Source: Rivularia sp. MS3
GTDB lineage: Bacteria > Cyanobacteriota > Cyanobacteriia > Cyanobacteriales > Nostocaceae
Reading direction: 5' to 3'
Assembly: GCA_019192545.1 (NCBI GenBank)
Contig: JAHCMI010000002.1
Location: 1-64,000, forward strand
DNA length: 64,000 bases
Shown here in pieces: positions 41,229-44,362 of the stretch. The position numbers and the translations under genes are program-made. The notes below the pieces were generated by a model. The model made no database searches and had not been told where the DNA came from. It saw only the letters and a list, made by a program, of their open reading frames with translations. The first letter of the stretch is position 1. Every line of letters starts with the position of its first letter.

Positions 41229-41576
41229 ATGAAATATACTTTCGATATTGTAGGTGTATCTCCAATTTTGCACTTTTTTAACCATCAACAACAGAGTCAG
41301 GAAAAGACTCAAAGTCAAGGTGTAGAGTACTTAGGAACACATATATGTACTCTAGATGCATTTCTCGAAACAGTAGAGCCAGTGCCTTCAAAGTGGGGCT
41401 GGAATATGGATGAAGTTGTGGATACTGTGATTCAGTTTTGGATGAACAATTCTGAGAGTATTGGTTACTGGAAATCTCGTTTAACCGATGCAGGTAAGGA
41501 TAATTTATTAGTTGCAAGGGTAGCGGATATAAAAGCATTAAAATCGGAATTTAATTCTTTATTGGGGAATGGTTGA
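41229..41576 (+). CDS. Conserved hypothetical protein, 115 aa
   Basis: This small soluble protein has no domain I recognise. It begins MKYTFDIVGVSPILHFFNHQ and contains a WGWNMDEVVDTVIQFWMNNS segment and a helical C-terminal end; it has no signal peptide. A good ribosome site (GGAGG, 7 bases before the ATG) supports translation. Its upstream region carries the CIRCE-like operator array, which suggests stress-responsive or repressed expression. A short hairpin at 41628-41645 may end the transcript. Confidence 0.65.
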   Translation: MKYTFDIVGVSPILHFFNHQQQSQEKTQSQGVEYLGTHICTLDAFLETVEPVPSKWGWNMDEVVDTVIQFWMNNSESIGYWKSRLTDAGKDNLLVARVADIKALKSEFNSLLGNG

Positions 41577-41645: not shown

Positions 41646-41773
41646 AATTATTTTGTTATCGCCTATTTCAATGTAAAATATTTTCCTAATATTAAGTAGC
41701 TCGGTATACAAAACAACTAAATACGGGCTATTATGGGCATTGAAAATTCGCTGAAAAAATAGGAGGATTAAGT

Positions 41774-42442
41774 ATTCTTATTCAGTTTACTGATTTCAAC
41801 GGAGCAGATACGTTTATCACTTCTCGCTACAATACTGAATGGAATGAAATATCCAACGTCTTAACTGAAATTCCACTACATATTAAAGCTTCAGATCAAG
41901 CTGGAATTCAAGGGAATCCAATATTCGATCCAGTCGGAACTAATGAATATATCAAAGCTGCAATGGTACAGCTTGAATGGAAAGCAAATATTCCAATTCC
42001 ATCAGAATATAAGTTTTTAGGTAAGGATATTGACTTTGGTAAAGCAGGTATAATCGTTGAAAGTCAGTTTTCTAATTATCCTTTTCTACTTAATAATACT
42101 TTACGTTCCGAATTGTTTTTTAAAGCCGGTACTGTATTTGCGTCACAACCGACTCAACTGGTAGTTTTAATTACGAAAGCCGGAATGTTTCCAGCTTCTA
42201 ACAGTACACTTTACTACGAACAAGCAGTTAAGCAATTGACAGCTTTAGCTGAATATCATGTATTTGATGTCCCAATTAGACTTGTAGGATTATTTGAATC
42301 TAAAAATACTACCGTACCCATTACTTGGACTGTTTATTCATCAACAAGATATTCTAGAAAAGTTTAAGTAAGGGAAACTCGTCAATGTCAAATTATGCCA
42401 GGTAGATCCACACGTAGTCGTTGCATAATTCGCCTTTTATAA
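41774..42442 (+). pseudogene. BglII-family restriction endonuclease gene, altered start and in-frame stop
   Basis: The translation matches R.BglII (AGATCT) as I remember it along its whole length: IPLHIKASDQ, IFDPVGTNEYIK, DIDFGK, SQFSNYPFLLNNT, MFPASNSTLYYEQA and VFDVPIRLVGL. The catalytic Asp, Glu and Gln are kept (residues 87, 96 and 98). The codon that aligns with Met1 of BglII is ATT (41774-41776). It follows a perfect AGGAGG (41761-41766) by seven bases. A TAA at 42365-42367 interrupts the frame; reading through it gives 222 codons, close to the 223 of BglII. The first ATG in frame is at 41963, beyond essential parts of the fold. The gene is either dead or started weakly at AUU and shortened by 25 residues. 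Confidence 0.8.
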
Positions 42443-42449
42443 TTAATAA

Positions 42450-43547
42450 TTAATCCCATAAATTAAGTTGAATCTGTTCTACCTTATCTTGTTTTCTTAT
42501 AGGTGTCTTTTTACCATTTCCATTCGGTTTTCTATCTATGGGTGGTTCTTCTCCACGTAAATTAGCAGCAAAAGCAGCTTCCTCATAAAGCAATCTATCT
42601 TCCATTTCTTGCAAATGGTATTCTTCAGAATATATCTTTGCCTTACTGCGTTCTGATGCCTTTTTAGCTACCTGCATATCAAAACGAAATTTTTCAATAG
42701 TTTCGCCAGTTTCTTCCACATAATCTCGCAGCGTTTTTAAATTGGGAAAACATTCATTTTGATCGGGTTCTTTACTCAAGCGACGTAACGCTACTTGATG
42801 ATATTTCGGCTCTAATTCTGCTCCTATAAAGTATCTTTCGTAGTCTTGAGCAACAACAGCTACCGTACCCGAACCCATATAAGGGTCAAGCACAATATCA
42901 TTCTTATTAGTAGTAGATAAAATAATACGAGCAATCATATCCTCTGGAAACTGACAAGGATGTATCGTCTGTTCCTCATGATTATGTTTTACATTCCGAA
43001 ACAACCAGATATCACCAGGATTTTTACCATTAGGATTACAAGATAATTCACCTTTACGATTTCCCCGATAGTGTTTCTTATTTTGATATTTTTGTGGAAC
43101 TCTAATACCATCTAAATTAAAAATATAATTATCAGATTTAGTAAACCAAAGTAGCGTTTCATGACGACAAGAAAACTTTTTTCGAGCATGAAGTCCATGC
43201 TGTCTCGCCCAAACTATACGATTTTTTGGAATTAACTCACAAGATTCTAAAATAGGAAAAAATCGAATATCAAGAGGAATTAACATTCCTTTATTAGAAA
43301 AAGCACCAATCTGCCAGAATAAAGAACCCGTACTTTTTAGAACTCGGCTACATTCTCGCAATATAACCGTTTGCTCTTGTAAATAAATTTCTAAAGCCTG
43401 TTTCGCTTCATATTCCTTACCTAAATTATAAGGTGGAGAAGAAACAACTAAATCAACAGATTCATCCGGTAATTTTTTCAGCAGTTTTATACAATCTCCC
43501 AGGTAAATTTCGTTTAAAGGAAGTTGATAATTATCTGTCACTGCCAC
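42450..43547 (-). CDS. Type II DNA methyltransferase (beta class, likely N4-cytosine), BglII-type partner
   Basis: This is a 365-residue amino-methyltransferase. The catalytic motif SPPY is at 37-40 and comes before the AdoMet motif DPYMGSGT (221-228), the beta-class order. SPPY is frequent in N4-cytosine enzymes. The region in between (about 105-190) holds the target recognition part, and a charged C-terminal tail follows. It is convergent with the BglII-like nuclease gene, its end 8 bp from the end of the read-through nuclease frame, so it most probably methylates the same site (AGATCT in BglII). The frame is intact, so protection persists even if the nuclease is lost. Confidence 0.88.
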   Translation of the reverse strand: MAVTDNYQLPLNEIYLGDCIKLLKKLPDESVDLVVSSPPYNLGKEYEAKQALEIYLQEQTVILRECSRVLKSTGSLFWQIGAFSNKGMLIPLDIRFFPILESCELIPKNRIVWARQHGLHARKKFSCRHETLLWFTKSDNYIFNLDGIRVPQKYQNKKHYRGNRKGELSCNPNGKNPGDIWLFRNVKHNHEEQTIHPCQFPEDMIARIILSTTNKNDIVLDPYMGSGTVAVVAQDYERYFIGAELEPKYHQVALRRLSKEPDQNECFPNLKTLRDYVEETGETIEKFRFDMQVAKKASERSKAKIYSEEYHLQEMEDRLLYEEAAFAANLRGEEPPIDRKPNGNGKKTPIRKQDKVEQIQLNLWD

Positions 43548-43647: not shown

Positions 43648-43923
43648 CTAATTTGAGGGAAAATAGCGATAAAAATCTTTACGATGTAAAACTCGATAAA
43701 AAGTAATCATATCACCATCGAAAGTTAAACCAATTCGATAATTACCTACCCGAATTCGATAAGTATTATCATATCCTGTTAGTTTCTTTAGATTACTGAC
43801 TTCTTCAAAACTTTCAAGTAATGGTATTTCTTCAAAAACAAGTGATTTGATTGATTCAAAGTATGGAGTACTTTTGAGAGTTTTAATATCTTTTAAAAAA
43901 CCAGGTAGATACTCAGTATTCAC
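43648..43923 (-). CDS. RelE/ParE-family toxin
   Basis: This is a 91-residue toxin of the RelE superfamily, likely an mRNA interferase acting in the ribosome. The segments LKKLTGYDNTYRIRVGNYRIG and VLHRKDFYRYFP carry the family's Arg and C-terminal aromatic/His residues. It starts with GTG, whose TG overlaps the TGA of the antitoxin gene (4-bp overlap), so the two are translationally coupled in the antitoxin-first order. It stands 100 bp upstream of the methyltransferase gene on the same strand. Confidence 0.85.
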   Translation of the reverse strand: MNTEYLPGFLKDIKTLKSTPYFESIKSLVFEEIPLLESFEEVSNLKKLTGYDNTYRIRVGNYRIGLTFDGDMITFYRVLHRKDFYRYFPSN

Positions 43924-44123
43924 TCTTTTTCTAATTCTGCTAATGCTTCGTTTAAACTAAGGGGTGTCTGTCCTTCAACTTCTTTCATAGCCATAATTAA
44001 CGCTTTATCTTCAATAGCTTCTACCATACGTTTATAATCGGTAAAATCTATCACTACTTTACGAATATTACCTTCAGCGTCGGTAATAAATTCTTTTGCA
44101 AATGGATATTTATCAGCTTGCAT
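43920..44123 (-). CDS. Antitoxin of the RelE-type pair
   Basis: This 67-residue protein precedes and overlaps the toxin gene. It has the shape of cyanobacterial antitoxins: a beta stretch (NIRKVVIDFTDYKRMVEAIED) followed by an acidic helical tail (TPLSLNEALAELEKE) that would wrap the toxin. Such antitoxins also repress their own promoter. Assignment rests on size, order and overlap with the toxin. Confidence 0.8.
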   Translation of the reverse strand: MQADKYPFAKEFITDAEGNIRKVVIDFTDYKRMVEAIEDKALIMAMKEVEGQTPLSLNEALAELEKE

Positions 44124-44152
44124 AGAGTTTTGGAAATTTTTGAGTGGTAATA

Positions 44153-44362
44153 TTAATTTAGCGTGTTGGCATTGGAAATTACCATTTCAGAATATTCCTC
44201 TTGTATCATCTCAAATACATTAACAAGTTCTGCACAAGCTTCGTCTAAAGTTTTTCCCCAAGCGTGACAACTGGGAATTAATGGGATGTGAGCGACAAAG
44301 GTATTGTTGTCATCGAGACGAATAACGATTGTGTAGTCTTTCAAGGACTTCATTAGATTCAT
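44153..44362 (-). CDS. HicB-like antitoxin without a HicA partner
   Basis: This is a 69-residue protein with the partial RNase-H-like fold of HicB: YTIVIRLDDNNTFVAHIPLIPSCHAWGKTLDEACAELVNVFEMIQEE. HicA, normally 60-80 residues with a conserved His and encoded just upstream of hicB, is not found on either side. It therefore appears to be an orphan, or to serve another role. It lies 29 bp upstream of the RelE-type antitoxin gene on the same strand and may be co-transcribed with the pair. Confidence 0.75.
   Translation of the reverse strand: MNLMKSLKDYTIVIRLDDNNTFVAHIPLIPSCHAWGKTLDEACAELVNVFEMIQEEYSEMVISNANTLN

Follow-up and report, generated by a model that had tools for sequence, protein, structure and literature searches.

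A BglII-like restriction endonuclease gene of Rivularia sp. MS3 with a conserved, putative AUU start codon

The first 64,000 nucleotides of contig JAHCMI010000002.1 of Rivularia sp. MS3 (assembly GCA_019192545.1; this whole stretch is called the window) contain a BglII-like restriction endonuclease gene (R) that appears to start at ATT. Restriction enzymes made too early or in excess can kill their host, and the best-known safeguards, the C proteins, act on transcription. Comparison of R with its relatives points to a BglII-type endonuclease whose translation would be throttled by a conserved non-canonical start codon similar to those of infC and sigR, and of which the window appears to hold a decaying copy. 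We give this reading a probability of roughly 70%. The conserved start is a more interesting finding than the stop codon within R or the missing regulator gene. In the following, ATH stands for ATT, ATA or ATC (AUH for AUU, AUA or AUC), C for the regulator and M for the methyltransferase.

Sequence comparison identifies the frame at 41774 as a true homologue of R.BglII. A phmmer search matched residues 3-196 to the R.BglII structure 1d2i (E 1.3e-66), and the frame was recognized by PF09195 (Endonuc-BglII; 27.3 bits, cut-off 26) and as REase_II by PADLOC (E 5.1e-70). In a profile built from 22 R proteins, position 1 falls on residue 1 of BglII, and the alignment reaches BglII residue 214. Residues N72, D87, E96 and Q98 align with N69, D84, E93 and Q95 of BglII, of which we take the last three to be active-site residues. 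The relation to BglII and the retained Asp, Glu and Gln, both claimed in the original prediction from the letters of the DNA, are therefore confirmed, the catalytic role of the residues being assumed. A specificity for AGATCT is assumed by homology. For an intact relative (L006), the predicted structure matched the BglII structures, C-terminal strands included; the window protein lacks residues 198-222.

The ATT at 41774-41776 (forward strand) aligns with BglII residue 1 and is the probable AUU start of R. Read directly in the sequence, it is preceded at a distance of seven bases by a perfect Shine-Dalgarno motif, AGGAGG (41761-41766; duplex energy -10.2 kcal/mol), just as had been noted before. 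Reading back in frame from this ATT to the nearest stop, one meets no ATG, GTG or TTG; inside the gene, the next such codon is codon 64.

Homologues were detected in 23 of 292 genomes of relatives, in 29 of 388 genomes of the order and in 11 of 388 genomes of the class, PF09195 likewise occurring in 11; scans of GTDB contigs and viral contigs added 10 and 4 loci, respectively. After removal of duplicates and fragments, 36 BglII-like loci had a readable start. Fragments with unreadable starts (L021, L033, L064, L067, L068) were left out, as were the duplicates L063 (same gene as L074), L019 (same genome as L109) and L066 (as L022), second genome copies of checked identity (L024, L028, L030, L031, L051, L052, L054) and second copies recognized by genome handle (L043-L050, L055-L059, L061, L065, L073). 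The start codon of R was ATH in 25 loci (21 ATT, 2 ATA and 2 ATC, all 25 sequences being different), ATG in eight (L015, L017, L020, L022, L026, L027, L082, L085) and GTG in two (L032, L083). The remaining locus, L084, was ambiguous, with an ATT aligned to codon 1 and an in-frame GTG two codons upstream of it. The ATH loci are distributed over families f1, f2, f5 and f9 of the order and two named Nostocaceae contigs. None of the 25 has an ATG, GTG or TTG in frame between the upstream stop and the ATH codon, and every one has a Shine-Dalgarno match in front of it. The set comprises intact genes together with damaged or cut ones (L001, L023, L072, L074), and two of its genes (L062, L109) are cut by contig ends. 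The ATT of the window is thus backed by 24 other loci.

Members of PF09195 that resemble BstYI (L034-L042, L069-L071, L075-L081) were counted separately, and their R genes start with ATG or GTG wherever the start is clear. The downstream gene starts with ATG in ten regulator operons from the same family that show lower similarity (L124-L133); in L124 this gene encodes a type II endonuclease according to PADLOC (E 2.6e-47), with no Pfam match. The ATH start would hence be a property of the BglII-like lineage and not of the genomes at large. A search of plasmids and phages for homologues yielded no match. BglII-like R genes are present on the viral-classed contigs L082-L085, and a convergent methyltransferase-like open reading frame (ORF) is displayed for L082, L083 and L084.

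Of the 25 ATH loci, 18 carry the gene of a small XRE-type regulator directly upstream of R and on its strand. Intact C-R-M loci are found, for example, in Anabaenopsis elenkinii CCIBt3563 and Sphaerospermopsis kisseleviana NIES-73. The C proteins of L006 and L023, the ones scanned, contain an HTH_3 domain, and a composite C query found C.AhdI and C.BclI among its PDB matches, behind two proteins of the XRE family and one putative transcription factor. In all 18 loci the stop codon of C covers positions -5 to -3 relative to the start of R, so that 2 bases separate it from the ATH codon, and the two genes are read in different frames. Among the loci displayed, a methyltransferase-like ORF follows R in convergent orientation; L023 shows none. 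The non-canonical start is confined to R within a locus, since M starts with GTG, ATG or TTG and C with GTG at a conserved place in all 17 ATH loci scanned (L002-L013, L016, L018, L023, L025, L029), L006 and L016 carrying a further in-frame start upstream of it. Duplex energies upstream of C range from 1.9 to -3.6, which indicates that no Shine-Dalgarno sequence precedes this gene; GTG starts of this kind would fit leaderless transcripts.

In the other seven ATH loci (window, L014, L053, L060, L062, L072, L074), no C gene turned up ahead of R. All seven have ATT, which shows that the ATH start is independent of the translation of C. Shine-Dalgarno pairing is stronger in them (-9.0 to -13.8) than where C is present (-5.8 to -9.4; with kinship ignored, p 4e-4 by a Mann-Whitney test).

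The R genes are under selection at the protein level from their very beginning. Pairwise comparison of non-synonymous (dN) and synonymous (dS) divergence revealed such selection on codons 1-32; dN was not below dS in the pair L014-L053, an insertion of two residues distorts the pair L009-L011, and the genes of the pair L026-L027 both start with ATG. M is constrained as well, with dN/dS of 0.08-0.10.

The system in the window itself is decaying, to judge from its genes. The R frame (41774-42367, forward strand) is assigned by homology and ends after 197 codons at a TAA (42365-42367), at a codon that is sense in the intact relatives. The TAA costs R its final 25 residues (198-222). The former 3' part of the gene (42368-42442) is recognizable beyond it: the profile match carries on to position 222 with the one TAA within, and read-through leads to a second stop at 42440-42442, giving 222 codons with the TAA counted, as compared with 218-224 codons in intact relatives. 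The part cut off is present in 21 aligned relatives and, in the predicted fold, contains the strands 197-208 and 218-221. The truncated enzyme would probably be inactive. The TAA is supported by one assembly.

Directly upstream of R, positions 41739-41771 (forward strand) read IENSLKK*ED* and probably represent a relic of the 3' end of an XRE-type C gene. Its final TAA takes up positions -5 to -3 relative to the ATT, precisely where C stops in the 18 C-bearing loci, and the C protein of a relative ends in IEELLKTQKEN* with its stop in the same place, although the similarity is short. By tblastn no credible C gene was found elsewhere in the window, and the C query gave no match in the genome of the window (G000; 9.19 Mb). 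The methyltransferase gene (42450-43547, reverse strand; type II, N6_N4_Mtase, 365 codons with a GTG start) is intact and convergent with R, and matches PF01555 (E 1.2e-58) and the PADLOC MTase_II model (E 1.2e-125). The original prediction had described two separate lesions, ATT and TAA, in a locus that kept its methyltransferase. The premature TAA is indeed a departure from the relatives and M has been kept, but the ATT is no lesion, as ATH occupies the same codon in 25 loci that include intact genes of 218-224 codons; the second real lesion is the missing C gene, which the prediction did not mention. Its other suggestion, that AUU may serve as a weak start as in infC, agrees with the recurrence of ATH at this codon. 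The observation is therefore confirmed, while the main interpretation is corrected and partly supported.

A genome of the same genus (G001) has a syntenic M with 91% identity to that of the window, and its R is down to about 21 codons of the gene's end. In the place of the deleted R, between a shared upstream ORF and the methyltransferase gene, G001 carries an ORF for an Mrr_cat nuclease (769-1272 of L087, forward strand). The other six genomes of the genus gave only weak matches to the window M, so that of the two that possess this methyltransferase, one has a broken R and the other very little of R left. Broken or missing R genes with C or M left were also seen in L015, L023, L072, L074, L087, L106 and L107; a repeated decay of the endonuclease across genomes is suggested. 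As to the surroundings, an ORF of 115 codons that matches nothing in Pfam or PADLOC lies at 41229-41576 of the window (forward strand), and a similar ORF precedes the locus in G001. On the other side, ORFs for a ParE-type toxin, a RelB-type antitoxin and a HicB-like antitoxin adjoin the methyltransferase gene (43648-44362, reverse strand).

Counts of AGATCT in 10 genomes were considered as a mark of restriction and discarded. The genome of the window holds 37 sites versus 1598 of the reversed word, and G001, with M and without R, holds 23. Similarly low counts occur in genomes of the genus with only weak M matches (G002, 25; G005, 20), others being higher (G004, 305; G006, 163). Genomes that carry a C-R locus gave 9 (G086), 38 (G065), 40 (G039) and 239 (G102, where the locus is intact). 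Low counts thus occur without a close M and a high one beside the intact locus of G102, so that the count does not mark this system.

The mechanism that we favour would operate as follows. The AUU start of the endonuclease (AUA or AUC in some relatives) would be an inherited trait, with a Shine-Dalgarno sequence upstream. The ribosome would bind, AUH would pair poorly with the initiator tRNA and little endonuclease would be made. By analogy, good ribosome binding together with a poor start codon may provide a low and buffered dose of a lethal enzyme, a brake that in most relatives would be layered upon the control by C. In the window, C has been lost save for the probable relic of its tail, an apparently recent nonsense codon takes away the last two predicted strands of R, and M is still intact and constrained. 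AUH starts are discriminated against by IF3 in other bacteria; initiation at AUH, a lower expression from it and a role of IF3 are proposed here on this analogy. More tentatively, and with slightly less confidence than doubt, we suggest that AUH and Shine-Dalgarno sequence were selected together as a brake, that restriction is tied to IF3-controlled fidelity of initiation and would increase under a shortage of IF3 with respect to ribosomes, and that loci deprived of C tend to a stronger Shine-Dalgarno sequence and have kept the brake.

Several observations weigh against the start codon as a brake in a decaying system. The ATG and GTG starts in eight and two related loci indicate that the enzyme does not need AUH, and the Shine-Dalgarno matches of the ATH loci L010 and L013 are weak (-5.9 and -5.8). 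In a tree of 25 rows with weak deep branches, which was preceded by one of 29 rows, three changes between ATH and ATG suffice; the ATH rows may share one ancestor, so that few independent events may stand behind the conservation. ATT makes up 19 of 23 at codon 1, a share only mildly above that at the other isoleucine codons of the same genes (306 of 485). G occupies 8.5% of the four-fold sites in R genes, and given this rarity and the kinship of the 25 rows, the absence of G from the third base is weak evidence alone. Compared with two relatives, the window R has dN/dS of 0.149 and 0.157, values inside the range of 0.142-0.286 from pairs without the window; relaxed selection was therefore not seen in these two comparisons, in which an event of recent date would not show, and the stop, and the decay if real, would be recent. 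Finally, infC in the 12 relatives read has ATG or GTG in frame at the conserved start and no sign of AUU. Classical IF3 autocontrol is hence not evident in the group, and infC was dropped as a precedent for AUU within it. A second IF3_N match, apparently an IF3 paralogue with a frame of 166-173 codons, is present in six of 21 relatives (G008-G012, G174), and would bear on the issue if start-codon discrimination differs in the group.

Some of these observations lend weight to an unlikely alternative, in which ATH is the true start and has no regulatory role, being an inherited quirk that is tolerated thanks to the Shine-Dalgarno sequence and perhaps to coupling with the translation of C. The small number of changes in the tree, the mild excess of ATT, the scarcity of G and the existence of ATG relatives all agree with it. 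However, ATG is one base away and ATH has nevertheless lasted in four families and along long branches, its third base varying among T, A and C, and it is kept in the seven loci without C, where the Shine-Dalgarno sequence is stronger (kinship again ignored). That the ATT is instead a mutation which silenced the gene could be argued from the company of a nonsense codon and a lost C; ATH at the same codon in 24 other loci, many of them intact and under purifying selection, rules this out for practical purposes. A fusion of C and R, by -1 frameshifting or by read-through of the C stop, would make initiation at AUH unnecessary. It draws on the overlap of C and R in different frames in 18 loci and on natural C-endonuclease fusions known in other systems, as described in PMC3850674, but a slippery heptamer occurs in 2 of the 18 overlaps, the shortest of which measures 7 bases, seven ATH loci have no C that could be found upstream, and other relatives have ATG at exactly the same codon. 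We consider such a fusion very improbable and rejected it.

Translation might also begin inside the gene, as most relatives scanned have an ATG at or near codon 33. Judged by the predicted structure, the protein would then lack its initial strand and first helices; moreover, codons 1-32 are under protein-level selection, the methionine is internal in BglII too, and the window has isoleucine at codon 33 and its first ATG at codon 64. On the grounds of selection and structure, an internal start was dismissed as highly improbable. A different question is whether the truncated enzyme of the window is still active and, being translated weakly from AUU, forms a weak but working restriction system. 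The active-site residues are kept and no relaxed selection was detected, and the BstYI structures match the model over residues 1-175 only, which means that not all of the wider family has the tail. On the other hand, the strands 197-208 and 218-221 would be lost according to the model, the tail is present in the 21 aligned relatives, C has gone, and a genome of the same genus deleted R and kept M. We judge a working enzyme improbable and favour a decaying copy of an endonuclease with a throttled start.

If this reading is true, the conserved AUH start would amount to a safeguard built into translation and would place another gene with a well-conserved non-canonical start alongside infC and sigR. 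It would also offer a clean test case for IF3-dependent control beyond E. coli and Streptomyces. Gene finders and pseudogene calls that demand ATG, GTG or TTG can misread such genes, and here a conserved start had been taken for a mutation. In Nostoc 7120, eight gene models were revised on the strength of proteomics and given ATA or ATT as their start (PMC8557916). In searches of an open-access library, no title or abstract beginning listed reports a restriction gene with an AUU or ATT start, and a search there for BglII isoschizomers in Nostoc returned nothing.

Compared with known systems, the locus resembles R.BglII (1d2i, 1dfm, 1es8; PF09195) in endonuclease sequence, active-site residues and, as predicted for L006, fold. 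In 18 relatives it also has, like the BglII system, a C-type regulator ahead of R, and the methyltransferase is likewise of the N6_N4 type. It differs in the non-ATG start of R and the convergent methyltransferase, and in the window by the loss of C and the truncation of R; the BglII genes of B. globigii presumably lie in tandem. As in C-controlled systems such as PvuII, the C gene of the relatives is directly upstream of R and stops near its start, but here R starts at AUH, and in the window the linked methyltransferase is present and an intact C is not. A study on PvuII reports that R is translated independently of C despite the overlap of the genes (PMC2997769), and coupling between C and R is hence not to be assumed. 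For infC, PMC5472188 gives ATT as the start in E. coli and ATC in Streptomyces, and for Streptomyces sigR a GTC start that is repressed by IF3, the protein being overproduced from a canonical start. The endonuclease differs from infC and sigR in its gene class, in that control by IF3 is proposed by analogy, and in belonging to a group whose own infC (12 relatives read) shows no AUU start; it is like them in its conserved non-canonical start and in the brake that this start may put on a dose-critical protein.
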